64,000 nucleotides of DNA from Dicyema japonicum (Eukaryota > Dicyemida > Rhombozoa > Dicyemidae): assembly GCA_011109175.1 (NCBI GenBank), contig RDEW01000003.1:558001-622000 (forward strand), given 5' to 3'. Under the pieces are notes generated by a model. That model did no database searches. It worked only from the letters and a program-made list of their open reading frames with translations, and was not told where the DNA came from. Positions 728 to 48,460 of this stretch are shown piece by piece (within the stretch, counting starts at the first letter, position 1; each line of letters begins with the position of its first letter). A program made the translations under genes and the position numbers.

Positions 728-1217
728 TCAAATTTTACGTAGATATTTTTTAAGGTTTTTTACACCGCTTATCAATTCCTTACACTCATACTTGTACATA
801 TCCAGGCAGGACTCCTTTATAATGTCCTATTTAAATAAAAGACAGCACAACCAGATGAGTGGCAATTTTAAGTTCTAAGAGGTCCAGGAAGTCACTGACA
901 TTTAAGGATGGATGTTCTGTTTTAAACGACAAGAATGGACACGTTGGATTGTGGCTGATATGCTCGGTCCTATTGGTTATGTGAATCAAATACCAAGGGC
1001 AGTCATTCTTATTCCAATCAGACAATTCAATTTCGCACATAAAGCACTTTGAGGACAAATAGCCTGACATGTAGAAACCTGATGAAGCCATTTTTGTAGG
1101 ATTGTTGACTTCATCGTTGTAAGGCCATGATTTGAAAGATTCAATTCTGTTCTGCAGAAAGCAGTAAAAGAATTCACTATTGCTGAAATTAAGAACAAGA
1201 TCGATGTCCAACACCAT
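728..1217 (-). CDS. BIRC5: Survivin-like single-BIR protein, 3 exons with 24- and 25-nt introns
   Basis: Removing two GT-AG introns (970-993, 24 nt; 827-851, 25 nt) gives one 146-residue frame; human survivin is 142. The BIR domain follows a short N-terminus (RIESFKSWPY, then MASSGFY) and carries the zinc ligands in the exact spacing C-x2-C-x16-H-x6-C (CFMC ... EHISHNPTC). That spacing only appears once the 24-nt intron is removed. The 25-nt intron removes a premature stop and opens a lysine-rich C-terminal helix of about 40 residues, the survivin architecture. In the family this is a chromosomal passenger subunit with Aurora kinase and INCENP at centromere and midzone; that role is inferred. 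The start is the first ATG in frame before the BIR domain. A further 5' exon is possible. Confidence 0.88.
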
Positions 1218-1471
1218 AACAAATAATTAGCGGAAATCTATTTATTTTTTAAATTATTTAATAATATATTATTTTCATTAAAATCTCAATATATTATTTC
1301 TGTCCTATAACCGGAATTTTTTATGGTTAACGGAATTTTTTATGGTGTCTTGTGGCTCACCCGAGAAGGTGTTACCCTTTCCGGAAAGGAACCAAAGAGT
1401 CAATAACTTCTCCCTACCTCTTGGGGGTTCCCGTTATCTACGTTACCGTCAATTCTGTCCTATTACCTTTT
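1218..1471. other. Intergenic, no gene recognised
   Basis: AT-rich sequence upstream of the survivin-like gene. A short direct duplication of GGAATTTTTTATGGT occurs at about 1313-1345. No coding homology or promoter motif could be assigned. Confidence 0.4.
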
Positions 1472-3720
1472 ATGTTGAGGTGGTGACGTCCCTTTTGAAA
1501 GTTATGTCTGAAAAACACGAAAATTGCAATCTAAAGGACTTCTCTCTTAACGTTCACTGTCAGAGGACTCTCTAGGTTTGGAAAAGAAAAAAAAACTTTT
1601 CACAATATAAGATATCAGTCAGATGTCTCCAAGAGACAAAAATATCGAAGGAGTTTGAAGAACAACACGGAAAGTTTAAGTTAATCTTTCTCTCTGGGGG
1701 ATCAAAACAATACGGACTAGGATTCGCTGTAAGAAAGGACCTAGTCCGGCGCATATACCGTTACTGGACTATCAATGAAAGGATTGGGATTTTACAAATA
1801 ACATTGGACGATCATAACTATCATTAACGCATATACCCCACATGGTGGATGGATCAACAAGAAACCCGAGGAGATTGACGACTTTTATGCGAATCTGTCT
1901 GATGTTTATTCCAATTATGCAAATTCAACATTAATATTGATTGCCGGTGATCTTAATGCAAAAGTTGGAAATCGAATCATTATAGAAGAATCATTCATTG
2001 GAAGACATGGAAGGGGAAAAGGAACCTTGTTAGCCAGCTTTTGTCAAGCAAATAACCTATTCCTTTGTAACACTGCCTTTATGAACTCGGCAAGAGAAAG
2101 GACAATTTGGTCAGGCAAAGTCTGACGGAAGCATTGCGAAAATCTACAATCAAATAGACTACAGACAAAAAGACCGCAGTATTGTCACTGATGTCCGTGC
2201 TTATGGAGGGAGGGTCTATAATTGACAGCGATCACAAGATGGTTAGTGCCAAAGAAACTTATGGGTTTGCAAGCAAAAAATACCAAAAAACTCACAATTA
2301 ACACGGATCAGGGAAAATTAGACAAAGAAATAACTTTGGAAGAAGTGTTGACAGCAAGTTTCAATCTCAAAGTCCGGCCCAGATGGCTTAAATGGTGAAT
2401 TTTTCAAATATGGAACGCAAAAACTACACAAAATAATTGGATCATAAAAAAAACGTACAGTAAAGGAGCCACCTTGCTACTTGAAGAAGGACTATTGATA
2501 CCAGTACAGAAGCCAAACAAAAAACGGGGAAAGTTGAGAACCTAAGACCAGTGGTCTTAACCAAAGAATTGTGGAAGATACTAGCCAATATTACGCTTCA
2601 AAGAATGGAGGGACTCCTAGACTCGTACCTGTCGGCTTATCAAAGTGGCTTCCGCAAAGGGAGATCAACGTCAGATGTTATATGAAGCCACAAATGGAGA
2701 AGTGCGACTGTTCAAAAATTTAAAATAACGACAACCATTCTGGGGATTGATATGTCAAAGGCCTTTGATTCCGTCAACAGGAACAAGCTGCTGCAAATAC
2801 TGGAGCACTTCTTGAAGGGCTCAACAATTAGGATGTTCAGGACACTCCTGACGGACACAAGTTTGATGGTCAGGACTGGGAAAGCTTTATCGAGGACATT
2901 TGAAACGACAATTGGTACCCATCAAGGAGATCCATTAACCCCGATTTTGTATTTTATTTTCTGGAGGCAGCTCTACGAGACTTGAAGCCTCATATCGGAG
3001 AAGGAACGAGCATAATAGCATATGCGGACGACGTGGACTTTATTTCGAATAACAAAGAAGAGTTAATTGCACTTTTGGAGAAAATGCCTGATAAAATGGC
3101 TAAATGGTCACAAACACAAACAAAACCGAAATCACGGAACTAAAAAGAAGTGAGGAAAGGACCGAGGAGCACTGACGTAGATCAAAAAAACTAGGATCCC
3201 TTCTCGGTGACACCGAAGATATAACACGAAGGAACACACTATTGCCGGTGAGACAATACAATGCCCTTATGAGGCCAATCCTATTATGTAATGCCGGTAC
3301 AGGGCAGGAACTCGAAAAGTTGAATTATTTTCACAGAAATCATCTCCCAGCACTTTTTTCTTCCCGAAGCTTTTTCAAAATGCCGTCCGAAATCTTACAA
3401 AAGAGAACAGGAACTGAGCCAATATCATGTGAAATTACTGATTCAATATGGAGGCTGTTTGGACACATACTCCGCTACGATATGGGGACCCCTGCCAACA
3501 TAGCAATGGAGGAGTATTTTGTCTTATAGGCTTCGCGTTTTCGCGGCCGGCCGAGGACAACACTGCCGGTAATCTTAAATAAAGATCTCAGAAGGATTGG
3601 AAAGTGCTTAAAGATGGGGATGATCTAGATATGCTACGGAACATGGCAACGGATCGAAAAAGATGGGCGATGTTAATTAGGTTGTTACCTTTTCGTGTTG
3701 CACGTGCTTTTTCATGATCT
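1472..3720 (+). mobile_element. LINE family A copy 1 (APE endonuclease + RT), decayed
   Basis: The 5' block TTGAGGTGGTGACGT (1474) matches the start of copies at 50172 and 26970. Endonuclease pieces: CLQETK-like, YGLGFAVRKDL, IAGDLNAKVG (1937-1970) and FLCNTAF. RT pieces: MSKAFDSVNRNKLL (2752), THQGDPLTP and AYADDVDF (about 3020). The C-terminal part includes RLFGHILRYD and a GRPR motif near 3550. Stops and frameshifts break every domain, and the RT thumb is partly lost near 3180-3240. The order EN-RT-C-terminal domain is that of APE-type non-LTR elements (RTE/CR1-like); the clade is not resolved. Confidence 0.85.
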
Positions 3721-3955
3721 TGGCATCGCCTACGTGCTTATCATAATATAACCGTCAATATAAAACGCACGTGACTAGTGGGCCATGACTGTAAAAATTC
3801 TTTTTGTATATGTTGTAGGTTGAACAGTGGAGTAGGAGATTCCTAGAAAATTTGGGCCTCTCTTAAGACCGGTGGATCACATGGGGTCTCACAGGATTCA
3901 CGAAGGCACAGTTTTTCAGCCATGGTTCATTTGATGACTTTCTAAGAACGACTAC
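3721..3955. other. Spacer between LINE A and LINE E
   Basis: No coding similarity seen. GC is slightly above the surroundings. It may be 3'UTR of either retroelement. Confidence 0.3.
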
Positions 3956-5010
3956 TAAAGACATACGCCTGCATGATAAAAATACTGGATTCAAGGAAAT
4001 TTGGCGATAAGATAAATGGAAATACCGATTTTTGACCGAGTTTAGTGATGTAACCCTTCAGATCATCTTTATGCTCAGTGAGTCAAATCAATATGGCAGG
4101 AGATTTCCTATAGGGGTCGACTCAGCTCCCAAGATATCTTGCTATTTTCACCTGACTCCTTTTTCTTCTACGCACATTCCAATGTTTCACGGTCATGAAC
4201 TTCTTAAGGGCCATCGACGAGAAGCTGAGGACTGCCGGTGAAGAAACACTCAGCATTTCTTTTGATAAAACTGATAATCCAATGAAAACTACCGCTTATC
4301 TACGGAGGAATAGGAATACGCTTACTACTAGATCTCGCCTTCCCGGCTTTTCTATCTTCGACATATGCTTCCAATGGTCTCATACGCCAGATCCTACGCT
4401 ACATTAACGGATTTGAAGCTGAACCAGTGATTTGGATGGCTCGGGATGTCTGGACTCGATTGAGCGTGGGATTCCCGAAGAACGCTAATAAACAACGAGA
4501 CTGGGACAAGCTTTCATGCTCATAGATCATAGACGCGATAAACCTGAACTTGACCACCATCATCTGGCTTGTCTGGCTTCTGCATTGACGAACGAAAGTG
4601 TTGCATGGCTCAGAGCATTACCATGCACCTCACTTGGGACACTATTTGATGACGACAACAAAAGGATTGGGGTTTCCGCCCGCCTCGGAATGGATGTTTG
4701 CGCGATCCATCTCTGTCAACGCGAAGGGTATTCACGTTCTCTCCTCCAGGATGAGTGCTTAAAGGGATCCCAAACACACCGCAATCAACGCAATTATTGC
4801 GTAGAGACTTCCGAATGTCCTGCCAAATTGGAGCCTCTTGGACTCGCCCTAGCCAGCAAAACAACAGATGGAATAAATCTTTTTCCACGGGAAAGCGGTA
4901 GATACATTTCTTGGGAGGCCACCTGTTTGGATAGCCTCTCTTCTTCCAACTTGTAATAACAGCAACTAACCCAGGATTTGCTTCGGAGAAGACTGAGACC
5001 ATAAAGATAA
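3956..5010 (+). mobile_element. LINE family E, C-terminal polyprotein fragment
   Basis: Broken frames carry landmarks of a widespread non-LTR C-terminal region: FLRAIDEKLRTA (4195), a LALPAFLSSTYAS-like segment (about 4340-4370), LPCTSLGTLFDDD and RIGVSARLGMDVC (about 4600-4700), then a DGINLFPRESGRYISWEATC box (4860-4930). The last box resembles the PDG...W...G...W.AT core of a C-terminal nuclease-like domain; this comparison is from memory of the family, not a search. No intact RT palm is seen. It probably belongs with the C-terminal piece at 6060-6401, split by about 1 kb of unrelated sequence. Confidence 0.65.
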
Positions 5011-5239
5011 AAAGATACGAATTTTTGAACCACTCGTCATGGAAACGTCAGGAATCATAAGAAGCAGATCACTGATCCTACTAAACAGAATCGGAAGCGG
5101 AAAATGACAGGAGAAAGGAGCCGGCTCATTTAGTGCATTTTCTTGTAAATTAGTTGTTAACCGCTAGTTTTTGCATTAAACCGTTTTTATTTACAAAAAG
5201 TTAGTTAACTGCACTTTCGCATTACCCATGAGCATATGA

Positions 5240-5475
5240 ATATGGTTCCGCTAGTTCTGTTCTCTTCACTATCCGTTCTACCAGTTTTCTCCATTTAACT
5301 TTCCTCCTCGCACGTCTCCGCAGTTAACTGAGGAATCCAAGCATAAGGTCACATGTCGGTGTTCGAAGCGAGTCCTCTGAAGTTGAAAGATGTGATTGTA
5401 AATCGGGTAGAATAGACAGACTGAGAGTAAGATTATTGGAGAGATGTAATAAAAAATACCGGCATAGTCCACAAA
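5240..5475 (-). repeat. Dispersed repeat, copy 1 (pair with 63060-63290)
   Basis: About 200 bp align with 63060-63290 in the same orientation: shared GTAACTTTCCTCC/TTAACTTTCCTCC, GCATAAGGTCAC, and GGGTAGAATAGACAG at the right end. The minus strand can be read as a basic R..GKL..E segment like those upstream of some retroelement RTs, but the assignment is weak. It marks an otherwise unidentified interspersed family. Bases 5476-5848 hold nothing else recognised. Confidence 0.55.
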
Positions 5476-5848
5476 TAACGATACATCTTGAAAATTGAAT
5501 ATTTCAATTATTAGAAGACCACGTGAGAATTAATCGAAAAATTGCCTTCTCAAGAAGAGCGTGGAGAAATCTAACATGGAAAATTGTCCACGGTGTTGTA
5601 GAAGCGACAAGGAGATAACTTTCTTTTATTCGCGTTTTGCAAAAATAATAATAATTATTTTTGTACCACATTAACGAAATCATAGTCAAGTTGAGGTCTC
5701 TGTTAAAGCCTTCTGAGTCACATGAGTAGTTAGTTTGAAGTCACCGTGATCTTAGGAACTTTTTTATTTCATACTCAAAGTTCAGAAATTCAATTCGGGT
5801 TTGTTATTGTGCATGGTATAATCAATATGTGCTAAAACGCGGAAAATA

Positions 5849-5970
5849 TGGAAAACGGTAAACTCACTCAAAGACCCTATGGGATAGAATTAGAATTAGT
5901 GAAACTGGAATCATTTAGTACTACTTTAAATGAACAACCTCCCACTGGATGGGTTTCCCAGCTGCATACA
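5849..5970 (+). CDS. Possible first exon of an unrecognised gene
   Basis: An ATG opens a 41-codon frame (MENGKLTQRPYGIELELVKL...) that ends in TAG just after PPTGWVSQLHT. A 21-nt GT-AG segment at about 5950-5970 could be an intron and would extend the frame by about a dozen codons before the next stop. No family is recognised and the next exon cannot be fixed. LINE E sequence begins about 100 bp downstream, so this could be a truncated gene or chance. Confidence 0.22.
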
Positions 5971-6401: not shown

Positions 6402-6414
6402 AATAAAAAAAATT

Positions 6415-6625: not shown

Positions 6626-6627
6626 CA

Positions 6628-6870: not shown

Positions 6871-8405
6871 ATGAATACCGTATTTGTTTTGTTAACAATC
6901 TTCGGTGTCGGATACATATTCCACTACAATAACTCTAAAGCTCCTCAGGTCGATAGAAATGAACCGTTGATACTTACTGACTATTTAAATAACGGGAATA
7001 CAGACATTGCCAGAGAACTGAGTAGAGTCGAACCTTTCCTTGATAATATTGAAAGTTATTCTGGATTCTTCCGTGTTAGCAATGATTGTGTCCGAAACAT
7101 GTTCTTTTGGTATTTCCCAGCGAGAGTATTGACTTAAATTATGTTTAAGAACGGAAATACTTCTGCTCCCCTCTTAATATGGCTGCAAGGAGGTCCTGGT
7201 GCATCATCATTATTTGGTCTTTTTATTGAGAACGGTCCTTATACTCTGGATTCCGATGAAAACTGTAGAATCTAATATTCAGTCTAGTGGTCCTTCGAAA
7301 AATATCGTGGACACAAGAATATTCCGTTCTCTTTATCGACAATCCGGTACCTGGATATTTTTGACGTAAAGGTTGGAGCAGGATTCAGTTTTTCGGATGA
7401 AAAATGCTACTTAACTAACGAAGATCAGGTGGGTCTCTACTTGCTAAGGTAATCTGTTCACTGAAATTAGAACTATGCAGCAATTCTATCAATTATTTCC
7501 AGCTTTGAGACCTAACCCACTTTATATTACCGGGGAATCATACGCTGGGAAGTATATTCCAACCATGGTCAACACCATCCATGAATACAACCAAAATAAC
7601 CCAACCCCAATAAACTTGGCTGGAATGGCAATCGGAGATGGTCTGTGTGATCCCTACAATGTGAGTTCACTGTATTCAATGAAAGATGCTGAACTATGGA
7701 ACGTACTTCAATAGGATTGGACTTATTTTCGACAACCAAATGTGGCGATTTGACGATTTATTCAAGTTGGTTCGCCAAAGTATTGAAGCGGGGATTACTA
7801 CCAAGCAAGTAGGGTACCACCATTGTATAAACATTTCACAGTACAAAGACGAAATATTTCATCTTTATTACAATATGACTGGACTCGAAAATGTTTATGA
7901 TTACTATGCGGACAATGTCTGTATTCTACTTATTTTAGGATATCACGTGGGGACCTTTCGAAAAATTTCTGAATGATAACTCTCAAAGACTCCACGCTGG
8001 AAACTTAAAATTTGAAATGACATCATCCCCAGTGTTCGACGCACTTTATGCGGACAGAGCGAAATCAATGTCCCCCACCATTGAAAAGGTCATCAACGCG
8101 GGATACAAAGTACTTACAAGTGACTGAATGTAGAGCCTCTTTTTTTCGGGACAATTTGATATCATCGATCCCTACCCATCTACATCCGCGTTTATAAGGA
8201 ATCTTAACTGGAAAGGCAAGGAAAATTTTGCGGTTGCTCCCCAAAATATTTGGTACTCAACCAATGGCCCTAAAGGGTCAATGGGTATTACAAATATTTC
8301 GGAAATGTCATGCAACTGATTGTGAGGAATGCAGGACATATGGTACCCATGGATCAACCTGAGGCTGCCATCGAAATGCTCAATTTATTCATTTACGGCT
8401 TTTAA
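6871..8405 (+). CDS. Serine carboxypeptidase (S10, vitellogenic/CPVL-like), 9 exons with 22-25-nt introns
   Basis: Removing eight GT-AG introns (7126-7149, 7265-7287, 7347-7371, 7449-7470, 7661-7685, 7917-7938, 8110-8133, 8253-8275; 24, 23, 25, 22, 25, 22, 24, 23 nt) gives one unbroken frame of 448 residues, the usual S10 size. It has a hydrophobic N-terminus (1-17, signal peptide or anchor), FFWYFPA then [10 protein letters not shown] (oxyanion loop), and IDNPVGAGFSF spanning a splice. The nucleophile Ser lies in GESYAGKY near residue 192, Asp in SGQFDIID near 375, and His in NAGHMVP near 427. Each splice restores a conserved block, so this is an intact gene. In the family it cleaves C-terminal residues in lysosome or secretory pathway. 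A 33-nt in-frame GT-AG stretch at 7809-7841 may be a ninth intron; I kept it as coding. Confidence 0.94.
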
Positions 8406-11290: not shown

Positions 11291-12334
11291 ACAATCGCCA
11301 ATTCATGACGTAGCATGTCCAATGCTGAACACATATTGTGATTGATTAATCGGATTAAGATAGGAGTCCGCTGATCACTTGTCAACACTAGATGTTTTGT
11401 GTCAGAAAAAACAAGACGCTGGGTTTTTTGATGCAATCATGCACTGTTTCTGGAACTAGAAGACCTAAAAATGAAGGTCGTTAGTTTTTTAGTTGCTTGA
11501 AGCTGGTTCGTATTCTAACGCTTAGAGGGACTATTAATGAAATTTCTGCAGTGGTCATAGGATGGCTGAGCTACTTTGTGGGTAGCGTTCAACTCCAACT
11601 GTAATCTCCTTGACCACTCTGTCATGATAGGGTCTTTTGATTCGGAAAGTAATACAGAGGCCCCGAGAGCTCGGAAAGAGTTAAATGAAAAATGTTTCTA
11701 AAGACAAATACAGACACATCACAAATCAAAGGATAAGAGAGGTTCCATAAATCTACCACGCTTCTTGGCTTGACGACTGACGCCGTCATCAATGATACCT
11801 TACTGTGGAACCGAATTTTCTAACCGGTGACTCACACGCAACCAAAATGCAAGAAAAAAAGAGCTCTCTTAAAGTCTATGCATCATTCCTACGGTTAATT
11901 ATCATTACTGTCCTTTCCTTCTTAAAATATTGTACATCTTCGCTAAGTGGAGGTTCAGAAGTATACTAGATTGTAATTCTAATGAGATTGAAGATGTAGT
12001 GTAAATGGGAGTTGATTTATCACGACAATGTGACACCAATGCCTAAGTCGTCTTAGTTACTCAATAATGCCCGTACTATCCCACCCGGAAAGGTTATAGT
12101 TCAAAGCCCTATATGGGTCCTTCGGATCTGAAAACAGTGTCATTTGGAAAGATTGTTGGGGCGGCACATCTGCTAAACAATAAAACAGATGTCCAAAGGT
12201 GAGCTCAGACGGAACAAAAATCTGCCATGGCGCGAATTGGACGCCTTATTTGCATGTTCTGTACGTAAGCGTGGCCTATCGATCTCTGCTTTTAAAAACT
12301 TTAGCTAAAAGTGAGAGAAAAGTTGCCAAATGAA
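11291..12334 (+). other. Mixed spacer with a SINE-1 remnant near 11755-11850
   Basis: At 11761-11830 the sequence GGCTTGACGACTGACGCCG, then TCATCAATGATAC and CTGTGGAACCG, matches the body of the tRNA-derived SINE-1 family (compare 29420 and 55060). The rest of the interval shows no recognisable coding or repeat sequence. Confidence 0.45.
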
Positions 12335-12663: not shown

Positions 12664-14835
12664 GAATTAGAAATATTAAAAGGATTAAGAGCAAATTCTA
12701 TCTTGTCGAATTCGATTTAGAGAATATTTTTCAATTTCATAATTTTGTGAACGAAAATCGATATTTGACCTGTTTGAATATTTCATCAAAAAGAAATGAA
12801 ATTATTTTTTTAATTATTTGTAATTCTTGTTGAATAATTTGATAGCGAGACTGTATTTGACGCATTAAAATTTATAATAATTTTTTGACCAACGATCAAT
12901 ACTTAATCAAATTTCTTTAGCACATACAGATTTAGAAATATTAAGAGGATTAAGAGCAAATTCTATCCTGTCGAATTCGATTTAGAGAATAATTTTCAAT
13001 TTCATAATTTTGTGAACGAAAATCGATATTTGACCTGTTTGAACATTTCATCAAAATAGAAGTCAAATTATTATTATCTATTATTTGTATTTCTTGTTGA
13101 ATAATTTGATAGGGAGACTGTATATGACGAAGTAATTTTTATGATAATTTTTTGACCAATGATCAATACTTAATCAAATTTCCTCAACACAGACAGACTT
13201 AGCAATAGTAAGAGGATTAACAGCAATTCTATCTTTTCGAATTTGATTTAATGAATATTTTTCAATTCATAATTTTGTGAACGAAAATCGATATTTGACC
13301 TGTATGAACATTTCATCAAATAGAAATCAAATTATTATTATTTTTAATTATTTGTATTTCTTGTTGAATAATTTGATAGGAAGACTGTATTATGACGCAT
13401 TAAATTTTATAATAATTTTTTGACCAACGATCAATACTTAATCAAATTTCCTCAACACAGAGAGACTTAGCAATAGTAAGAGGATTAGCAATTCTATCTT
13501 TTCGAATTTGATTTAATGAATATTTTTCAATTTCATAATTTTGTAAACGAAAATCGATATTTGACCTGTATGGACATTTCATCAAATAAGAAGTCAAATT
13601 ATTATTCTTTATTATTTGTATTTCTTGTTAATAATTTGATAGGAAGACTGTATTTGACGCATTAAATTTATAATATAATTTTTTGACCAAACGATCAATA
13701 CTTAATCAAAATTTCTCTAACACATACAGATTAGAATATTAAGAGGATTAAGAGCAATTCTATCTTGTCGAATTCGATTTAGAGAATAATTTTTCAATTT
13801 CATAATTTTGTGAACGAAAATCGATATTTGACCTGTTTGAACATTTCATCAAATAGAAGTCAAATTATTATTATTCTATTATTTGTATTTCTTGTTGAAT
13901 AATTTGATAGGGAGACTGTATATGATGAAGTAATATTTATGATAATTTTTTAACCAATGATCAATACTTAATCAAATTTCCTCTAACACAGACAGACTTA
14001 GCAATATAAGAGGATTAACAGCAATTCTATCTTCGAATTTGATTTAATGAATATTTTCAAATTCATAATTTTGTGAACGAAAATCGATATTTGACCTGTT
14101 TGAACATTTCATCAAAAAAATGATCAAATTATTATTATTCTTTATTATTTGTATTCTTGTTAAATAATTTGATAGCAAGACTGTATTGACGAAGTAATTT
14201 TATAATGATAATTTTTTGACCAATGATGAATACTTATTCAAATTTCCTAAACACAGACAGACTTAGCAATAGTAAGAGGATTAACAGCAATTCTATCTTT
14301 TCGAATTCGATTTAACAATATTTTTCAATTTCATAATTTTGTGAACGAAAATCGATATTTGACCTGTATGAACATTTCATCAAATAGAAGTGAATATTAT
14401 TATTATTCTTTATTATTTGTAATTATTGTTAAATAATTTGATAGGAAGACTGTATTTGACGCATTAAAATTTATAATAATTTTTTGACCAATGATCAATA
14501 CTTATTCAAATTTCCTAAACACAGACAGACTTAGAAATAGTAAGAGGATTAAGAGCAATTCTATCCTGTCGAATTCGATTTAGAGAATAATTTTCAATTT
14601 CATAATTTTGTGAACGAAAATCGATATTTGACCTGTTTGAACATTTCATCAAAAAGAAATGATATTATTATTATTCTTTATTATTTGTAATTCTTGTTGA
14701 ATAATTTGATAGCAAGACTGTATTTGACGCATTAAATTTTATAATAACTTTTTTGACCAACGATCAATACTTAATCAAATTTTTTCAACACATACAGACC
14801 TAGCAATAAGAGGATTAACAGAAAATTCTATCGAA
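12664..14835. repeat. Satellite array, eight monomers of about 266 bp
   Basis: The anchor ACGAAAATCGATATTTGACC occurs at 12751, 13015, 13281, 13547, 13814, 14077, 14345 and 14614, giving spacings of 263-269. Each unit also has GAGGATTAA, an AATTTGATAG...AGACTGTAT block and TTTTTTGACCAA. Monomers fall into two types by GTCGAATTCGATTTAGAGAAT (units 1, 2, 5, 8) against TTCGAATTTGATTTAATGAAT (3, 4, 6, roughly 7). Many single-base length differences occur in A/T runs. No ORF runs through. Confidence 0.93.
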
Positions 14836-22579: not shown

Positions 22580-23986
22580 TTATAAATGTTAATAGAATAC
22601 ATATTCTACTAAATTGAATATATATTCTGTCGGATCCATGTTAAGTAATATTTGTTCTTGAACAAATCTCAATATATTTTCAGATAAAGCGATATATTTA
22701 GTTTTTCTAAGAATTCTTTCTCCATTTTGTAATTTAAAAAATTTTATCATTATGTTTTCTTCTTTTATCAATTTCTTTACAAAATTTCTTGGCGTCTTGT
22801 TTAGTGTCCAAATGTACTTCTAAGAACGTCGTACCAGCCTTCAATTGAGATATTTGTCCGAGGTCAGTCCTCATATAAATTATCCAGATTATTCCAATAA
22901 TTAATTGGAAATCTTGGAATTAATGCATTTTCTTGATTTCCGATATAATTGATCTAAAAATATTGATTAAAAGTGTTCTTTACAGTATGTGTAGGAATAA
23001 AGGAGAGGTATTTCAACAGTTTTAGAAATCTATCGTTAATTTTAAATCATATTTAACCTATTTATATCTTCATTATTTCTGTCGTTAAAAATTTTTAATT
23101 CCAATATTTTTTTATTAATATTTTGTCCTAGATGGAACATGCAGCAATTTATCCGGGCGTTTGGAAATGATTTTTGAAAAGAATTTATTGCTCCTTTTTC
23201 AAAATCTGAGACAATAACTCTTGGTTCTAAATGCGGAATGAGACGTTTAATTATTTGAAGCATTGTGTCATATTCATTTTCAGTTTTTGATGTTAAAAGA
23301 CAGAATATTATTGGAATTACATGGTGATTAATTATTACCGATATTGTGAATAATTGCTTCCAAGGAAAAAGGGCAGACAGAAAAAGTCCCATCAATAGAC
23401 CATATTTTATGATTTTTTAATGGTGTCGTCATTTCAGAATTAAAAAAATAACCATAGTTGTCTCAACATCTGAAAAGTTAATCATTAATATACCAATATT
23501 TTGGCGAAAACTGTGTCCAAACTGATAGAATCTATGCCCTCGTAAGGTATACATTAAATTCTCCTCAATAATAAGAACTGAATCATCACTTTCGTGTGGG
23601 ATACTTTTTCTTGTTTTATTAATCAGTTGTTCCAGAGAAGAATGAGTCCCTGTCAAAGCAATAGTTGTCAAATTTTGTCCAAGCAGAGAATTATTAATTA
23701 TCTGTCTAGGACCCATGTCACATAAGAGTGATTTCTGCTTTATGTCCTCCCGTATTAAGGCTCTCTTGACAAATTCACTCCTTAGAAGATGATTATGGTG
23801 CTTCAGACTCCAAACTTCATCACAGGATTGAATAGTTTTTACAGATCTAGGACAAGTACGATCTGAGCACCTCCAATATGTGCTTTGTCCCTTTTTGTAT
23901 TTTAAATGAAACAGATTTCCATCATGTTCTAAACTTCTATTTCCCTTTTGGTTAACGAGAAACGGTATGCAATAATAGTAAATCAA
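22580..23986 (-). pseudogene. MULE 2 transposase (FLYWCH + MULE core)
   Basis: Minus-strand order: FLYWCH finger with STYWRCSDRTCPRSV (Trp kept) and HNH (about 23890-23790), then a long helical segment. The core begins SALFPWKQLFTISVI (23370-23320), continues PRVIVSDFEKGAINSF with the catalytic D (about 23215), and CMFHLGQNI (about 23130). The C-terminal part (22960-22790) reads INYWNNLDNLYED and RTN in shifted frames, the RTNN..E.WH region. Several stops and frameshifts show it is dead. Confidence 0.82.
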
Positions 23987-24044
23987 TTATTATTATAAAG
24001 CACAACGTCTTGCTATTGGATATGACAAAACCAGTGCAGTACCA

Positions 24045-26970
24045 AACATTAATTTTTTAGTTAATTTTCTTCACTTTTCAGGATCCTGAGCCAAATCCCT
24101 CAAGTAGTCCAGGTCATCTCCCGTAGTTAGAGATAATCCTATTCTCTTCAGGTCTTCATTCAGTGTCGTGGCCAGTGATGCTCTCGGACGTCCTCGGAAC
24201 TTCACCTCCTCGGTTTGAAAGTATTCCTCCATGGCAACATTAGCTGGAGTTTCGTTATTTCCCCGAAGGATGTGTCCAAATAGGCTCCAACGAAATTCCA
24301 TGATGTCTAGTGAAATCGGTTTAGAAGACGTAATATAGTATAGTTCTTGACTTCTTGTTATCATACGGTCCCAGCACGAATGAATCTTTCGTAATTGCCC
24401 CCGATGGAAGGAGTTTAGTTTTTCAATGTCATTTAGGGTTAATGACCAAGAACTTGCATTATATAGGAGTATTGGTTTGACTAACGAATTGTATAGTCGA
24501 GTTCTGATCTCTCGATTCAAGCCCTTCTTTCTTAGAAACCAATTTCTTCTCAAGTTGTATAAGGCCGTATTTGCTTTAATCTTCCGTGCAATGATGTCTT
24601 CTTTATCTCCAAGCAGGGATCCCAGCTTTTTAACCTTTCGCCAATGCTCTTCCAGAATAGATTCCTTCCTCATCAAAGTTGTCAGCTCTGTCTTGTCTTT
24701 GTTGATATTTAGTGACCATTTTTCGAATACTCTTGGTGCCGTCTCGAGTAATCCCAATAGGGCCTCCCCATTTTGCGAGACGAAGTCCACATCATCTGCA
24801 TAAGCTAGGATGCTAGTTCCCTCCACAAAAAAGGCTTGAGATCCCGTAGCGCAGACTCAAGATATGCAACAAAGAGGAGAGGAGACAATGGATCTCCTTG
24901 TGGAGTCCCAGTATTTGTCGAAAATGGCATGGCTTGAGTATTTCCAATTTTAACAGTTAGTTGTGTTTCAGCCAGTAGTGCCCTAATCATCGAAACTGAC
25001 GAGGCGTCGAATAGACCCGTGATAGATTCCAATAGTTTACAACGGTTTACTGAATCAAACGCTTTCGATATGTCAATCCCAAGGATCCCAAAAGATGTTC
25101 TAAATCTTTGAATGGTTGAACATCTCCATTTTAGGCTCCATAAGACGTCTGCCGTTGATCTCCCCTCGGGGAATCCACTATGGTATGGTGAAAAATAGGC
25201 TTCCAAATTCTCTCTTACACGTTCGAGAGTGATAATAGCCAGGATCTTCCTGATAACATTCATTAGGATGATCGGTCTCAAGTTTGTTACTTTTCCTTTC
25301 GGCTTATTTGGTTTGGGAACCGGAATCAAATAACTCTCTCCAATAAGTAACAACACACGTTCTTCAAACATTTTGTTCATGATCAACGCAATGATTTCGT
25401 AGAGGTAGTCACCGCCGTGTTTGAATAGTTCAGGACGTAGTCCATCCGGGCCCGCACTTTTATCAGGTTTCAGCCTTTCACATGTTAATTTCACCTCATA
25501 AGGTGCAATTTTCATTCCCAAATGAATGCCGAAATCACATTCTGAGTCGTATTTAGCCCCGACCTGAAGTGATCAGTAACCAACTCGGCAATCTCAGATG
25601 GGTTCATTATTCGTCTTCCATTTTGGTCGTATAATATAAAGGTACTCTTCTTATTGTGACATTTAAGTAGCCTAACGGCTTCGTAGTATCCCCTGTTACT
25701 TTTTAGCCCTTCCAGATGCTCTAATTTGTTTAAGGCATCACATCTAGTGGCAGTCCTCACTGCTTTCTTTATTGACTTATGCATTCTTGCTTTTTCTTTT
25801 CTGAGTTCATCTATTGTAAATTTATTCATAGTTTTCTTTTCCTGCATTTGCAGTCGAATTTGCCTCTGCAGTTTGATTAGATGAGAGATATCTTGACTTG
25901 CACTATTCACATTTATCCAGCTTGGAATCTCCATATACATTTCATCATATGTTTTATGCATCACCATTGATACGTTTTTCCATGCGTTTAAACATGATTG
26001 GTTCGTGTTAATATTCTCCAATTTGTTGGTTATTCGTTTTCTGTATATCTCCTTAATTTGTGGATCTGAGAAATTAATAGTCTTATTGTAGGCGTATTTT
26101 TTGGGTGGGTAGTATATTTGGAGTGTTTGTAATAGCTTACTCGAAATTTCGCAATGACCATCTTATGGTCAGTGTCAATGGACGAACCTCCGTAAGATCT
26201 CGCATTTGTCAATAATCTCTTATCTTTGCATCGACATATTATATAATCGATCTGGTTAAAAATATTGATTATTTCTCCGTTCTTTTTCTTGGTTGTCCCA
26301 CACCAAGTCGTCATATGTCTTGCAGCGTGAGCGAATGCTGTATTACATAAGAACAAATCGTTTGACCGACAGAAGTTTCCTAACAGCGTTCCAGGAAGGT
26401 TTCTTTTCCCCCTGCTGAATCTCCCCAAGAACGTTTCGTCGGTATCTGTTCTCCTCCCCACCTTGGCGTTCATATCACCAGCTATAAATAAAAGTGCGGA
26501 GTCGGCCAATTCTAAATATAAATCTGATAAATCTGAGTAGAAGTCATCAAATAGAGCCGGATCTTTGTTAATCCAACCACTGTGAGGTGCGTATACATTG
26601 ATAATGGAGACAATGTCAGTGCTTGCTTTGGCATTCATGAACTTCATTTGTAGAACTCCGATGCGGTCATTAACTGCCCATACTCTGTAGATATGGGGAG
26701 AAATTCCATTTTGATGGCAAAACCCAGTCCATAGTGCCTGTTGACAGTCGAAAGAAAGATCAATTTGAATTTACCACATGTTTCTTCGTGGTTATCTTGG
26801 ATTTTGGTTTCCTGTAGGCAACCGATTGCGACATCGAAATTATGTAAGTCTTGACAGAGGGAGGTCCTTTTCCAAGAAGAGGTTAGGTCAGCGAGAATTT
26901 CTCCAAAAGATAAGGTTCGTACTTTTCAGACATGTTAATACTTTATTAGAGCCACGTCACCAGCTCAACC
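24045..26970 (-). mobile_element. LINE family A copy 2, least decayed copy
   Basis: Starts at GGTTGAGCTGGTGACGTGG (26970 downward) with ATG at 26933. Endonuclease: CLQETKIQ, YGLGFAIK, FIAGDMNAKVG (26490-26455), QIDYIICR and GSSIDTDHK. A linker (26021-25512) leads to RT: PDKSAGPDGLRPELF, GILGIDISKAFDSVN (25090-25045), TPQGDPLSP, ILAYADDVDFVS (24810-24775, catalytic YADD). The C-terminal domain has WSLFGHILRGN and FRGRPRASLATTLNEDL. Only a few frameshifts separate the parts, so it is younger than the MULE around it. Confidence 0.9.
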
Positions 26971-29775: not shown

Positions 29776-30973
<1,198 letters not shown>

Positions 30974-31141
30974 TCTGGTTTAGCTAGTTATTTGGGTTTT
31001 TGAAAAGAATTTTCAGATTTTTTTAATTTCATAATTTTTTAGTTTAAATGGAAATATTAGAATTTCTTAATATTGTTATGAATAATTTCCAATAATGGTT
31101 AATTTGGAGTATGTCGCGAGCGCTCAGAGTGACGACAATGA
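30974..31141. other. Actin 3' flank
   Basis: AT-rich sequence after the stop, no clear AATAAA. GTCGCGAGCGCTC near 31111 is a short GC-rich palindrome. Nothing else recognised. Confidence 0.3.
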
Positions 31142-40142: not shown

Positions 40143-41150
40143 ATGATGATATACTTTCTACTGTTCTTAATTAACCTCACATATCAAAAACTCGTACATC
40201 TAAATAATGAAAACTTTGATAAAGAAGTGAATAAAGTCGAATGGTTTGTCGTGCTATTCAGTATATGATTATAATGATTGTAGAAAATACTATTCCTTCA
40301 ATCGATCAGTTAAATGGATATTATCGACTACAGAAACTTTCTACTTTACATGTGAATAATATATCCTTTGGAGTCGTAAATGCGAATTATAATAAAAAAT
40401 TGCTTAGTCGTTTAGGAATCACTTCTCCAGGGACGATAGCCTTATTTAATAAAGGAAAAAAGAAGATTATTATGGTGGACTTACATGTTAATATTAGGGT
40501 TACGAGATTTTAAAAACATGAATACTTATGTTGAAGATACAACAGGCCAAGTTTGGTTGAATAAATTCAACTATGATCACATACTTAATGAAGATTTGAT
40601 TATTATTGTGATGATTGATCGAAATAGTTCAAAAGTTTATGAATTAGCTGAACGAATTAAAATTGCTACGGCAAAACATGATGTTTATTTGAAATTTTAA
40701 TTTAGATTCAAGTATGCTTTTTAGATGTTAATCTTAAAAACTATCTTACAATTCCTGATTTTTTCAATATAAACTGGATTCCCGGCAATTGTTGGAATTG
40801 ATAGATATTCCAATGAAGAATTTTATGGATACATTATTGGCAATGAATCTATACAAACTGATTTAGTTACTTTCGTAGATATTTTGGATAACGAAGATGA
40901 AGTAGATGTCAACTATAATAAAAATTTTAAGAAGATATGCAATACGAAAGAATTCATTCATGCAGTAGACTGTATTTGTATGATTATTTGTTTTAATACT
41001 AGATTTGAAGTCTTTGGCAAATTTATAACCTTTTTAATCGGAATTTTCTTTGTAAGAATATTTGATTTTAAGATAGCACTCACGGGAATTTCAGAGAGTA
41101 TTCGCGATGTCAAATTATTTATGGAAAAAGTCATCAATAGTTTCTCTTAG
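40143..41150 (+). CDS. Thioredoxin-fold (PDI/TMX-like) membrane protein without CxxC, three 23-nt introns
   Basis: Introns 40261-40283, 40475-40497 and 40683-40705 are each exactly 23 nt. Signal peptide MMIYFLLFLINLTY, then KLVHLNNENFDKEV and EWFVVLF, the start of a PDI thioredoxin domain. Splice 1 joins this in frame to IDQLNGYYRLQKLS, so the CxxC position is replaced. ISFGVVNANYN and LGITSPGTIALF follow. A second domain (NEDLIIIVMIDRNSSKV; IPAIVGIDRYSNEEFYG) resembles a PDI b-type domain, and FGKFITFLIGIFFVRIF is a late membrane segment, as in TMX3-like proteins. About 312 residues. Two one-base indels (the A run at 40456, CCCGG at about 40780) are needed for a continuous frame. Probably ER membrane and redox-inactive (inferred). 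Confidence 0.72.
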
Positions 41151-42568: not shown

Positions 42569-43278
42569 GAAGTGGTCGGCAATCTTTTTAACTAAAGAGC
42601 TTTTTGGTTTTTTGCAATTAAAAATTTGAAGAGCCACTTTTTAAAATATTGAAGCATAACAAAATTATATTTAATCTAGTCTAATTAATGAGATAATTGA
42701 CCCTGCATTTCCTTCCCAAGTAGTCTTCTAAGTCGTCATTTTAACTTAAGACAAGATTCCAAATTTGTATCAGTAATTAGACTCCGCACATTGCTGGACA
42801 TCGATATTAGTAGCCTTGGCAGACTGCTTGCAATAATTAAATGTTGAACCTTTAATTTTAATATTCTTTGGAGTTCTTCAGTGAATCGCCAATTGGATAA
42901 TTTCTTTAAAAAAATCACCATATTTTGTAATAAATTGTCTCTTCAGATTTGAATTTTTGTTCTGGTTGAATGTTTCATGTTAAAGGAAAATTATTTATAG
43001 ACATAATTGAAAATCCACAAGAGAATTTATGACTAAGCGAGTAAGAATTTTAAAATTAAAATATGAAAAAATATGTAATAATTTAAATAAAAATAAAAAT
43101 TTAATAAAAAATAGCATCTAGGTATTAAACATGTAGTCTAAAATATACATAAACGTAGTTAAAAAAACATTTTGGAGGAAGAACATATGTTTTTATTGGA
43201 GATTCATTTGCCATATTGAAAGAGCCACATAAAACTCCGAGCCACAATGGCTGTAAGAGCTATTGTTGGCGACTCCTG
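42569..43278 (-). mobile_element. Short hAT element (about 710 bp) with both ends, internally deleted
   Basis: Ends: GAAGTGGTCGGCAATC (42569) and, on the minus strand from 43278, CAGGAGTCGCCAACAATAGC. Both resemble CAGGGGTTGGCAA at 61134. Flanking octamers ATATATTG and ATATTATG differ at two positions and may be a worn target duplication. The minus strand keeps only the transposase tail (ISMSSNVRSLITDTNLESCL, 42810-42751), so the rest has been deleted. Confidence 0.75.
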
Positions 43279-43340
43279 ATATTATGGATACCTTCGTATA
43301 TTGGAATCATTATCCATTCTTGATTAATTTATTATTTACT

Positions 43341-44063
43341 TCAATACAACGTAATTTCCGATTTGATCTCGTTTTCGTCATATTTACTTGTTCGCAGGTT
43401 TACCATTTTTTCATCATCAATTATTAGATTTTCATAAGCTTCATCACGTGTATTGAATAATTTGTCTTCATATAACAAAAGTGCGTCATTCTTTATCTGA
43501 AAGTGCGTGCGGATATATTGCCTCATAAAAAGATAATATGTATTATTTTAAATCGTCTGGTGGATGGTAATATTTTAATCAAAAACGATGTTTTTTATGA
43601 AAGACTTAAAAGAACCAAAAATTCCGTAGATCAACTGAATGAAGAAATCAGTCGTTTTCTACATTGGTTGAATCTTCAATTTGAAGAGCAAATATTACCC
43701 TTCGACTTGACCTTGTACCCATGGAACCCTGCTTAATAGAGAACTTTTAACACAATTTTTCCATGTGAGCATTCCGTTATCGATTTGAAGAATCAAATGT
43801 GGGCCGACAACATAAATCAGGTTTGATAACAATTCTTTTATTTCCAAACATGTTTTACTTCTTGAGAGTTCGATCATTCCATAGTTTGGGAAGGAAACGA
43901 TCACAACCAGTATCTTTTTAATAAGGAAACAATTTTGATACCCAAAAAAGTCGTTTATAGATGAGTTTCTCCTAAGATCTATGAGATCTGCAATATAGCG
44001 CTCTCTTAGACCAATCGCGATTATTGGAGTCATCGGTTGTTTGGTTGACAACAAAAAACACAC
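43341..44063 (-). pseudogene. Integrase fragment (KRBA2/Ginger- or gypsy-like)
   Basis: Minus strand: RERYIADLIDLRRNSSINDF (44000-43940), SRSKTCLEIKELLSNLIYVV, GPHLILQIDNGM (second Asp, about 43790), and VPWVQGQVEG (43710-43695) keeping the catalytic Glu. A C-terminal piece (MRQYIRTHFQIKNDALLLYE) follows after frameshifts. The + strand ORF at 43503-43736 is its shadow. Confidence 0.6.
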
Positions 44064-44520
44064 TTTCTTATTATCCCAGGGATTTCAGACTTCGCTACAC
44101 ATTTTAGTTTAGTTTTCAATTTTAATAAAAAACGATCTCTACCAAAGTGATTTTAATTGTGCTCAGCCTACAATTAATCTAAACGATTTAATTACCTAAT
44201 GTTTATCTTCAGCACAAAAGAATCGTAACTTGTAGTCCCCTCTCCGATAAGTTCATTCTTCTTCAAAAATTAATTTTTTAGCTATTTCAATAAACGATCT
44301 CTTTCTCGTCTTGATGTGTTTAACTCATGCTTCATTTCTTTAATTTTTGCATTTTCAAGGTTTCTCTTAACATTTGTACAAAACGCATTTCAGCACGCTA
44401 ATTTAATTAATATATTTTATATACATTTTTTTATAAATTAATAATATTTGTAAATTCCAGTGGATTTTTAAATATTCTTAATAATTATAAATTAGATCTG
44501 TTAAAATTTAATTTGATCTG
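44064..44520 (-). other. Unresolved; coiled-coil-like frame on minus strand
   Basis: About 44400-44270 reads NVKRNLENAKIKEMKHELNT and SRRERDRLLK on the minus strand. No family or intron chain could be fixed. Confidence 0.2.
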
Positions 44521-44705
44521 TTAGCCGCGCGGCATAGTGGTTATGTGTCGGGCAAAGTGGTTGGACAGCGGAACTTGATAGTCTAAAAGGACATACACTC
44601 AAGAAAAAGAAAAAACAAGGAAAGTGAAAAGAATTCCTTATCCTACCTCGATTATAACTGTTCTTTGCTAAAAATAAAGTGTGTTCTGCCTGTGGGGAAC
44701 GATAA
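44521..44705 (+). mobile_element. SINE-1 copy, internally deleted
   Basis: GCGCGGCATAGTGGTTATGT (A box), then a deletion through the B-box region, and the body from AGCGGAACTTGATAGTCTA, ACTCAAGAAAAAGAAA to TAACTGTTCTTTGC and AATAAAGTGTG. Confidence 0.75.
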
Positions 44706-45183
44706 CTGATTTGGCTGCTTGGAAAGTGCGAACAATTTTATTATTTTTGTAATTATTATCTGTTAAAAGAGACGATTTATCAGAATGTGACACAATATTC
44801 TTGTAGGCTTTGACAATCACTTAATGAATTTGAGAATAAACTATCTCTGAAATATGATATCTCTGGTTTATGAGGATCCTCTACAACTTCTTGATCCGAT
44901 TGATAATATTAGAATTTGGTTTTGATTTCACAATATTCGCTTTGCCACTGAGTTCATGACTTCTTTGAGATCGAAAACGGAGAATCAGACAAGAGGTAAT
45001 ATGGAATTTATAATCGAAGGTTATTGTTATTAAAGGTACCAACTCAATGTATTCTTACGAAACTTTCTACGCCCACTCAACGTGTCCTCTTTTTTTAGTT
45101 TGTCGATGATCGTATCGAGAGATGTGCTGGAGTTGTTTGCAATTAACTCCAAAGATGTTCAAGTTTGATTTTAGAAACAACTA
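44706..45183 (+). other. Spacer with a 75-bp segment duplicated at 48073
   Basis: 45038-45112 (ATTAAAGGTACCAACTCAATG...) matches 48073-48145 at about 80 percent. Both can be read as LKVP...GILTKL-like residues, so this may be an old partial gene duplicate. The rest is unassigned. Confidence 0.4.
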
Positions 45184-46864
45184 CAGTACGACCCTGCCCC
45201 AATAGAGAAGTGCCCCAAATATAGAGGGTATATATAATTCGTATTTTTAATAACAAAATATGTTGTTTTGATAAAAAAAGGATTTAATTTATTTTATGTG
45301 AAATAATCAGTTATTTTGAACCCAGTATTATACTTATTTCTTAAAATCTTTGAAATTTTTATTCTGAATTCATAGTATTTTTTGAGACCTTCAGGGCAAG
45401 TATTGAATAAAGAATTTCGAGATTATTCATTATTCTTATGAATCTTTTAAACATAACCTTCAATCTCATCATTTCCATTATACAAAGTCACATTATATTC
45501 AATTCCGTTTATTTCAAGATCCATTAACCCTGAAACATGTTTATCAATTAATTCAGATGCTTTTTTGAATTAATTTCGCGTACACATGTTCTCTGTCGTT
45601 TATTTTCTTCTAACAATTGACATCGTTGGGTGGCGTAGTGGTTAGGTGTCGGGCTAAAGTGACTTATGTTACGGGTTCGATTCTCGCTGCTGTTCACCTT
45701 CAATAGGGTCGAATAGTATTCCTTAACATCGTCAAGACATATCATTTCATAAAGAACGTTGTTATAATATGTCTTGAGAGAGTATATGATCCCCATATCA
45801 AAAGGTTGAGAAAGTGCTGTTGTATTTTTAGAAAATTTAAGAATTGATAAGTTTGAATATTCTTGAAATTTTTGGCATTATCCATAAGAATCAAATTTTT
45901 TCTGTTAATTGACCATTTCAAAGTTTTTTTTTGTAACCATTTATCAAAAATATCAATCGCCATCCAAGCATGGCGATTTAAATTTCCCGATAACAAGGGG
46001 CTTTAATTTTTCACCTTCAAGACTGCAGCATATAAGAACTGAAACTCGTTCTTTGCTTTTCGTTTTACCAAAACAATGAAGAGACAAATGATTTACATGA
46101 ATTTTTTTAACAAAAAGAAAAGTTTCGTCGCAGTTAAAATATCCTTTTTTCTCGTATTTATCAAATAAATTGTCGTAATCGTTAAATAATCTTCGATTTT
46201 ATTTCTGTCACATGAGTTCTTTTCACCCGAAATTACTTTGAACAGTAATTCATGGCGCTTTTTAAATCGATCCAACCATCCATTTGATGCTTTGAAATCA
46301 TTGACGTCAAGATTAGCTGCAATTTTTTGCAATAGTTTTGAAGAGAAATCCTGAAACTGAAATACCATCCTCCCTCAAGACTTCGAATACTAATCGATCA
46401 ATTCGAATAGAAAGATCTGATTCAAACTTCTTAGATAGATCAGTTCATCAATGAGTTCATCAAGAATATTTGTGTTTTTGATACCCCTTTTCCGATTTCT
46501 TTTTTAATTCGTGAGACAGTTCCTTTTCCAATATTGTATAATTGACAAATTTTTCTTTTTGACATATTTTCTTTCATTAAAGAATCGGAAATCTTCTGTT
46601 TCAGGTGGCAACTAAGCTTCGCAGGCATGCTTAAAAATATTTTTGATTTAAAAAAAAAAAAATATATATATAAAATTGAAATAATAAATTTTAATATTAT
46701 CGATTGAAAAAGTGCCCCGATAAGCGGGGTTTTGTATTTTAAATTTAGGCTTTCTATTGGTCAAAAAATGTAAAAAATGTAAAAATCATTCAAAATAATA
46801 TTTATTAAAAAAATCGCCCCCAAAACAGAGAAGGCCGGGGTCTTATTGGGGCGGGGTCGTACTG
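45184..46864 (-). mobile_element. Tigger/pogo element 2, 1681 bp, both ends and TA target present
   Basis: Ends CAGTACGACCCTGCCCCAAT (45184) and, on the minus strand from 46864, CAGTACGACCCCGCCCCAAT, each flanked by TA. Transposase on minus strand: N-terminal HTH (KRKICQLYNIGKGTVSRIKK, 46555-46500), CENP-B-type HTH (FKASNGWLDRFKKRHELLFK, 46295-46240), DDE core with LSLHCFGKTKSKER in a shifted frame (about 46085-46050), NRKNLILMDNAKNF (about 45905-45870). Frameshifted; a SINE head is inserted near 45625. Confidence 0.87.
45625..45705 (+). mobile_element. SINE-1 tRNA-like head nested in Tigger 2
   Basis: GGGTGGCGTAGTGGTTAGGT (A box) and GGGTTCGATTCTCGCTGC (B box), 45 nt apart. Only about 80 bp of the SINE remain. 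It interrupts the transposase frame. Confidence 0.75.
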
Positions 46865-46974
46865 TATGCATACAACCACAAGAAATTTTTAGATAAAACC
46901 AAGGTAAATAAATCTCACAATGGGAAACGATTTATTAACAAAAAAGGGATTTAGATAATTAATTTTTTCCAACA

Positions 46975-47296
46975 GGATTGCGTGTGCGTTTCCATTAATA
47001 CGGAAATCCCGATTCGTTATCTTAGCCGCAACGATTTGCGGGTTATTTTTCGGCTCACTAGTTTGCTTCCGATTTCTTTAGAAAGTTTGCAGTGTGGATC
47101 CTACGGCTCTCGGTGTTTCTATGGTCACTGGTATGAATCGGTATCGGTTTATAATGGCCGAGTACTTCTGGATTTTGGCCAATTCTGCTGCGTTGGCCGC
47201 AGATCCAGGTTTCTGACCAGATCTCAGAAGGAGCGAAGTGGAGAAGTTTACACCCCAGACCAATAATTTTTCAGTGATAAGAGATATCTGAAGCAT
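46975..47296 (-). mobile_element. LINE family E C-terminal fragment
   Basis: Minus strand: KIQKYSAIINRYRFIPVTIE followed by TPRAVGSTLQTF (47180-47080), the same terminal signature as 6160-6270, then a basic RKSLRLR...IGISV tail in another frame. It meets a LINE B 3' end at 47297. Confidence 0.65.
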
Positions 47297-47575
47297 GGGT
47301 TATCTGAAGCAGTTGGGAGTATATAAGAAGTTCCATGCCTATCTAAAGTCCACTGTATTAGAGCGGACCCTAGAGAGCTGACACTAGAGTTTAGGAGGCA
47401 GAGCCCGGAGATGCCATATGGGCAGAGGGTTCAATTGGACAAGGCGCTCTCGGAGTTGTTTTAGCAACCAGAATCGAACCTGCCTGAGGAGGCTGGCGAA
47501 CAGGCAGGCGAGGAAAGTTGTTGATTATTAAATATTAATTTTTTACTGTTTATTAAATAAAGTGGGGATTTTAAT
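47297..47575 (+). mobile_element. LINE family B 3' end, close match to 56310-56580
   Basis: From GGTTATCTGAAGCAGTTGGG onward this follows 56317-56560 with only scattered differences, through AGATGCCATATGGGCAGAGG and GCCTGAGGAGGCTGGCGAAC to the ATTAAATAAAGTGGGG tail. A 5'-truncated insertion. One-base indels break the frame. Confidence 0.85.
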
Positions 47576-47877
47576 TTAGAACTAATTTTTCCCTTGATGG
47601 AAAATTATTATAAATGTGGCCTTCCAAATGAGTTTCACACCCCTGTTCTAATCAGAGGCATCTACTGATATTCGAAATCCTGATTCCCTCCAATGCAAAC
47701 AATCTGCGTCAAATACTGTGTGCAAGGAAAGTTTAGTAAGGTTAAGTAGGATTTCCTGGACGAGATGAGTTCAGCTCGAAAGCGACGATGTATGCCGTAT
47801 GGGCGATCATAAAGCCGATCTTAATTTCTGAGCTCGATTATCTTTCCTATCAATCCATTTATGTTGAGTTGAATGAT
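47576..47877. other. Spacer
   Basis: No recognised gene. A frame reading KPILISELDYLSYQSIYVEL (about 47810-47870) is open just before the candidate below and may be part of it. Confidence 0.25.
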
Positions 47878-48143
47878 GGAAAGAGCTCGGATTAGGTTTG
47901 ATGTCTCCAGAGATGATTAAGAACGTTCTTAACAGGCCAGATGAGTATTACAGAGAGTCGTGCCATGAAAGACATTCCTCTTGGTTTGGGGTGAGCAAAT
48001 GATCCTTTCTACTGTGTGACAATTCCACAGTTATGGCCACGGAAAACGGCAAAAACACGCGCTAAAATCATTAAAGGTACCAAATCGAGGTATTCTTACT
48101 AAACTTCCGACTTTCACTAAACGTGTGTCTTTTTTTTAATTTT
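47878..48143 (+). CDS. Unrecognised small gene candidate with 26- and 40-nt introns
   Basis: From MMERARIR, removal of a 26-nt GT-AG segment (about 47899-47924) joins to TFLTGQMSITESRAMKDIPL. Removal of a 40-nt segment (about 47986-48025) joins to GYGHGKRQKHALKSLKVPNR then GILTKLPTFTKR before TAA. The result is basic and protein-like but not a family I know. Part of its last exon is duplicated at 45038. The ATG lies in a frame closed upstream, so it may also be an internal exon. Confidence 0.33.
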
Positions 48144-48198
48144 TATAATTAAAATTAATATTTTATTTTTAAAATTTCCAATTAGTCTCGTTGTGTGA

Positions 48199-48460
48199 AT
48201 GCCAGTTTACAGGCAACCTGTAGGTCAATCTGGGCCAAGTTGTTTCGATAAAATGAAGTATGGGTTTGGAGTCGGTTGCTTAGTTGGGTGCGGTTCGGGA
48301 ATATTATTTGGCTCCTTTTCTGCATTCAGGTTATCTTCTACCTAATATTAGACTCGGGTTGCGTGGAAGGGAGTTAATCGGAATGATAGGGAAGTCTATT
48401 TTTCAGGCAGGGGGAACATTCGGACTCTTTATGGCGATTGGTACCGGGATTCGGTGTTGA
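48199..48460 (+). CDS. ROMO1: ROMO1 (mitochondrial inner-membrane protein; Mgr2 homologue), one 22-nt intron
   Basis: Intron 48330-48351 (22 nt). Spliced length is 79 residues, the same as human ROMO1. The sequence reads [20 protein letters not shown], a glycine-rich helix ([20 protein letters not shown]), then across the splice [16 protein letters not shown] and [18 protein letters not shown] to the stop. Both membrane helices, the GRELIG loop and the C-terminal GIRC are conserved. In other species it associates with the TIM23 translocase and affects reactive oxygen and cristae; that is family knowledge. The intron falls between the two helices. No indels are needed. Confidence 0.96.

Follow-up and report, generated by a model that had tools for sequence, protein, structure and literature searches.

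The window analysed here is a 64,000-nucleotide (nt) stretch of DNA, 35% GC, that corresponds to positions 558001-622000 of contig C115 in a genome of 64,672,829 bases and 191 contigs. Its S10 carboxypeptidase, actin and ROMO1 genes and, plausibly, its PDI-like gene, on the plus strand, and its BIR gene, on the minus strand, are interrupted by very short introns, and it is highly probable that these are spliceosomal introns of the U2 type that have become reduced to nearly the same length, about 23 nt, and would be removed, in what is probably a dicyemid, by a spliceosome with canonical-looking recognition parts. As judged from sequence, the short introns are genuine, and they are typical of the sample of genes taken genome-wide. 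Their lengths and junctions were observed directly, and we infer that the animal does splice at these sites.

The window introns were re-derived by hand and then tested with spliced protein-to-DNA alignment. An earlier note on this DNA had counted 17 introns in five genes; 16 were located and no seventeenth was found, 13 of them well supported (eight in the S10 peptidase gene, three in actin and one each in ROMO1 and the BIR gene) and the remaining three in the PDI-like gene. All eight introns of the serine carboxypeptidase gene (S10, CPVL-like; 6871-8405, plus strand) were identical by hand and by spliced alignment to nine homologues in which introns of 8-3000 nt were allowed. In order these measure 24 nt (7126-7149, ending in AAG), 23 nt (7265-7287, TAG), 25 nt (7347-7371, AAG), 22 nt (7449-7470, TAG), 25 nt (7661-7685, AAG), 22 nt (7917-7938, TAG), 24 nt (8110-8133, TAG) and 23 nt (8253-8275, AAG), and the spliced product is an unbroken frame of 448 amino acids (aa) that matches PF00450 (Peptidase_S10) with an E value of 3.3e-92. 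The actin gene (29776-30986, plus strand) holds introns of 26 nt (29899-29924), 23 nt (30141-30163) and 26 nt (30397-30422), all ending in TAG, the first and third found both by hand and by alignment and the second by hand. The aligner returned 26, 34 and 26 nt for this gene, the 34-nt call being the 23-nt intron merged with an adjoining frame break, and it returned 26, 23 and 26 nt for a near-identical copy (L038) that has the window's 23-nt intron. Single introns of 22 nt ending in TAG were placed by hand in the ROMO1 gene (48199-48460, plus strand; PF10247, E 5.3e-21; intron at 48330-48351) and in the survivin-like BIR gene (728-1217, minus strand; PF00653, E 2.7e-15; intron at 827-848). 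The PDI-like gene (40145-41150, plus strand) has a weak thioredoxin-like start and three introns placed by hand, each of 23 nt and ending in TAG (40261-40283, 40475-40497 and 40683-40705); these are only plausible, because the gene has no significant family match, the best of its Pfam pieces being thioredoxin at an E of 0.0022, below cut-off, and one piece compared with the PDB giving no match up to an E of 1.

The statement in the earlier note that splicing restores conserved motifs in every case is too strong for two of the genes, given that single-base frame breaks persist in the window actin (two, at about 30170 and 30840) and that two frame breaks were read by eye in the PDI-like gene, none of which the note mentions. 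Its description of the introns as GT-AG with TAG or AAG acceptors and never CAG is accurate for the window (12 TAG and 4 AAG among 16) and does not extend to the genome, in which CAG ends 24 of 151 introns.

The genome-wide length distribution that had been proposed as a check was drawn from 39 aligned loci, found by family searches and comprising 2 window genes, 13 actin or actin-related genes, 9 CCT/HSP60 genes and 15 AAA genes. The references were human beta-actin and nine S10, nine CCT-delta and six PSMC5 homologues, and the aligner admitted GT-AG introns of 8-3000 nt at one constant cost, so that it carried no bias toward short ones. The ROMO1, BIR and PDI-like introns and fifteen proteasome loci (L072-L086) stand outside this set, and a further locus, L088, duplicates part of the window. 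An ab initio gene finder, run on a generic codon model with wide limits on length, did not place the introns and was replaced by the protein-guided alignment. In 38 of the 39 loci 170 introns were called, with a median of 24 nt and with 153 of them below 30 nt, three of these doubtful (10, 11 and 17 nt); the short class is thus typical of the sampled genes. Nineteen calls were dropped before lengths and motifs were counted, namely those in the window actin (34 nt), L031 (78), L037 (39 and 52), L040 (50, 67 and 36), L043 (11), L044 (40), L046 (42), L050 (34), L051 (10), L060 (949), L063 (788), L064 (17), L067 (44) and the decayed copy L071 (34, 47 and 28). The 151 that were kept, under bounds of 18-33 nt, range over 21-31 nt with a mean of 23.84, a standard deviation of 1.81, a median of 23 and a mode of 23 (48 introns), and 132 of them measure 22-26 nt. 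Mean length falls from 25.2 nt in actin genes through 24.2 in actin-related (Arp) and 23.6 in CCT genes to 23.1 in AAA genes. Acceptors among the kept introns are 92 TAG, 30 AAG, 24 CAG and 5 GAG, and removal of identical or near-identical introns leaves 147 for the study of motifs.

Retention of these segments would be costly to the reading frame, as it creates a frame break or an in-frame stop in 142 of the 147 non-redundant introns. It might nevertheless be supposed that they are retained rather than spliced, in pseudogenes or assembly artefacts that carry small insertions, and the 17 single- or two-base frame breaks found in 15 of the 39 aligned loci, the window actin among them, and those in the PDI-like gene lend this some colour. 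Random insertions would not, however, give such a pattern of ends, lengths and shared places. With the same aligner, GT-AG outscored TG-GA, GA-TG, CT-AC and the absence of introns in 24 of 24 loci, and it outscored TG-GA and CT-AC in 13 of 15 AAA loci, the two misses being L070, in which no intron was called, and the decayed copy L071; the GT-AG ends thus fare far better than the decoys, and the length range is narrow. Paralogous actins share intron places (codons 41, 113 and 191 of the reference), and the segments are present in single-copy core genes such as CCT and the proteasome ATPases. Retention is for these reasons very unlikely, and the frame breaks are put down to errors of assembly or to copies in decay. 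One CCCC run is the site of a break in both the window actin and L029. Homopolymer errors were considered as the source of the breaks and found to be unsupported, with 10 of 17 near a run as against 47% of random window stretches.

The short introns carry a positional signal close to their 3' ends. With expected counts taken from shuffling the interior of each intron, a TNAY whose A lies 6-7 nt short of the last base was seen 68 times in the 147 introns against 21.4 expected, and none of 2000 interior shuffles reached as high a count in any two neighbouring positions. Over the wider interval of 5-9 nt, TNAY is found in 97 of 147 introns, compared with 50 +/- 5.6 in 500 shuffles, and a scan of every 3-letter pattern, with or without gaps, placed T-N-A-T at the same location at the top with a z of 6.7. 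The A alone occurs 77 times at distance 6 and 60 times at distance 7, against 42, and a T lies two bases 5' of the A at 6-7 in 70% of cases, versus 48% beside A's that are at least 10 nt away. If the enriched A is the branch nucleotide, as we infer, the implied loop is mostly 16-17 nt and the tail 6-7 nt, with the loop taking about three quarters of the change in length (slope 0.75). At the donor, the exon side of the same introns reads AAG, with G at -1 in 63%, and the intron side reads GT followed by A at +3 in 48% and by G at +5 in only 22%, such that GTAAGT or GTGAGT begins just 5 of 147. The consensus donor is GTAWTT. Donors of the U12 type follow RTATCCTTT, and a GTATCC start was found in 2 of 151 introns.

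The components expected to read these sites look ordinary in the case of U2, U6, one U1 5' end, U2AF1, U2AF2 and SF1. The U2 small nuclear RNA (snRNA) gave 25 matches, 22 of them over cut-off, with GTAGTA in all five copies read, and U6 gave 10 matches, 9 over cut-off, with ACAGAGA in all three read; one U1 5' end was read as ACTTACCTG. The best piece of U2AF1 shares 66% identity with the human query. Spliced U2AF2 reaches 341.5 bits against TIGR01642, for which the cut-off is 310.3, as compared with 82.6 for its best unspliced piece, and the introns of its ab initio model measure 22-28 nt. SF1 is represented by a helix-hairpin match of 113.2 bits and a KH match of 38.8 bits. It appears, then, that the readers of the branch and the 3' end are retained despite a gap of just 4-5 bases between the likely branch and the AG. 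Six of the 22 over-cut-off U2 matches lie on the same contig as the window. A single U12 snRNA match was also recorded (85.4 bits, over cut-off, at 163471-163599 of contig C68), and the two introns with GTATCC starts, like those of U12-type donors, are in L041 and L046; a minor spliceosome may persist.

Several observations weigh against this account of short U2-type introns with a branch-like signal and canonical readers. On the side of lengths, about ten of the 19 dropped calls, those of 34-78 nt, may be genuine longer introns, and the references for most CCT and AAA loci were paralogues, for which reason single junctions there can be off. On the side of the machinery, all 11 U1 matches fall below the Rfam cut-off (the best at 69.0 versus 69.5), and the U2AF2 model was joined in part by hand and includes an ab initio intron that measures about 68 nt. 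The signal itself is weak: a TNAY at 5-9 nt is missing from 50 of the 147 introns, a third, the 3-letter scan gave a z of 5.3 in the highest of 100 shuffles, and a pyrimidine after the A at 6-7 is not special (63% vs 59% elsewhere); what carries the signal is the A together with the T that precedes it by two bases. Such weakness would suit a different explanation, in which the A at 6-7 nt belongs to a 3' splice-site consensus longer than usual and branching occurs elsewhere. A T two bases before the A is the core of animal branch sites, and it is this pairing that is enriched here, beside an unchanged GTAGTA in U2; only 6 of the 147 introns, moreover, have no A at all at 5-9 nt. In the available account of Stentor the branch A lies at a similar distance (PMC9505925). 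An extended acceptor consensus is on these grounds a possibility to be kept in mind, though an unlikely one, and the branch nucleotide remains the preferred identity for the enriched A.

One plausible mechanism that follows from this preference is that a weak TNAY branch site is picked out mostly by distance. With the A lying 6-7 nt from the last base, the lariat loop would measure some 16-17 nt, and no more than 4-5 nt would separate the A from the terminal AG. Such an interval would be too little for the usual polypyrimidine tract, which U2AF2 would not find between branch and AG. Recognition of the donor would lean on the exon-side AAG and the GT, because the intron-side G at +5 is gone. 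Slu7 and Prp18 matter for long branch-to-AG distances. Second-step factors of this kind may be dispensable in such introns, as is suggested by their absence from the available Stentor table (PMC9505925). The full proposal of a fixed geometry, in which a spliceosome of ordinary parts would select the branch A mainly for its spacing (some 16-17 nt from the donor end and 6-7 from the last base), with a tract too short for normal U2AF2 binding, the +5 G lost and no change in the one U1 5' end read, seems to us as apt to prove wrong as right; if true, it predicts altered or missing second-step factors, for example Slu7 and Prp18, as reported for Stentor.

A dicyemid or a close relative is the best reading of the host, as the earlier note had proposed; it is supported and not proven, the support coming from the intron lengths, from four loci with PAX-domain matches over cut-off, which an animal would be expected to have, and from a homologue of the S10 gene filed under Octopus sinensis. 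The published genome of Dicyema japonicum, which the present one resembles in size and the window in GC, is 67.5 Mb with 36.7% GC, as given in the accessible part of its description (PMC6736024); the mean intron length published for it, 38 bp, derives from TopHat-based models. The homologue, P0030, filed as Octopus sinensis CPVL, is 59% identical to the window S10 over 206 aa and 67% over 90 aa, and the other 119 of the 120 S10 homologues listed are 36-45% identical to the window protein. The P0030 sequence breaks off precisely at intron 5 and resumes precisely at intron 7; between introns 2 and 4 it is scrambled, and at intron 8 it has six extra residues. The renal organs of octopuses are the habitat of dicyemids, according to the available text of PMC2222250. 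Taken together these sequence features suggest that P0030 probably derives from a dicyemid contig in an octopus assembly, with the tiny introns defeating the annotation, and the warning that gene callers mangle such genes is borne out in this one case, in which exons are skipped at the short S10 introns. The introns could also be genuine in a host that is not a dicyemid, whether an orthonectid, some other reduced animal or an unknown lineage in which introns shrank convergently, in as much as the identification draws on intron length, genome size, PAX and one Octopus-labelled homologue and not on a sequence that bears a dicyemid name. This is improbable, since the orthonectid Intoshia linei has a median intron of 57 bp, with most above 30 bp, in the available portion of PMC6543705, and the Octopus-labelled P0030 is far closer than the other 119 homologues listed.

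The remainder of the window includes an isolated fragment that matches eukaryotic large-subunit ribosomal RNA (11960-12324, 100.9 bits) and a tandem array of a 268-bp A+T-rich unit in 8.1 copies with 89% matches (12667-14832). Broken endonuclease/reverse-transcriptase frames resembling a long interspersed nuclear element (LINE) were seen by eye at 23429-26647 on the minus strand and at about 1500-3700 on the plus strand, and one LINE-like frame gave a sub-threshold Exo_endo_phos_2 match. The ab initio 'introns' that a whole-window run placed inside transposon frames were not counted.

It is clear that the shortness of dicyemid introns was already known, and it is the positional branch-like signal that was not found in print. 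A literature search with most subscription papers and Ogino et al. 2010 outside its coverage returned neither this signal nor the list of recognition factors; the latter paper is reportedly a survey of 40 D. japonicum genes. The assertion that dicyemids are reported to have introns in this range is confirmed, at 26-27 nt, by the accessible parts of two papers, which give 26.2 +/- 1.9 nt (n = 16) for Dicyema acuticephalum (PMC2222250) and, for a Dicyema sp., a median of 27 bp with two thirds below 30 (PMC6543705). Those introns are likewise uniform, very short and spliceosomal in an intron-rich animal. The mode of 23 and median of 24 found here (170 calls) are 2-3 nt shorter than those published values, which come from different gene sets, and the choice of genes may account for part of the shorter mode. 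A 2008 survey that includes the D. acuticephalum introns counts dicyemids as one of three lineages whose introns are the shortest known; its available text describes a 5' boundary weaker than any other known and reports no branch signature (PMC2483917). The present introns bear out the weak donor, and a branch-like signal is seen where that text reports none for D. acuticephalum.

Parallels with the 15-16-nt introns of Stentor coeruleus are instructive, as far as the accessible part of that study goes (PMC9505925). A branch A of weak consensus lies there at a fixed short 3' distance, with a 5-nt tail against 6-7 here, and snRNAs, U2AF1, U2AF2 and SF1 are present, as in this genome. The Stentor introns differ in having two lengths only, versus the spread of 21-31 nt seen here, in occurring in 18% of genes, and in that the last exon base is not usually G, in contrast to 63% here; Slu7 and Prp18 were reported as not found in that system. 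Extreme and near-uniform shortness is likewise described for the Bigelowiella nucleomorph (18-21 nt) and Paramecium (mean 24.8 nt), as quoted in the available text of PMC2222250; these are other lineages, reported without a branch signature in that of PMC2483917.

The case of P0030 indicates that standard annotation can mangle such genes, and that a parasite gene may sit in a database entry of its host. More broadly, a genome in long contigs with many introns of this kind and with ordinary-looking splice-site readers makes it possible to ask, by comparison and experiment, which changes an animal needs in order to splice introns of 23 nt.

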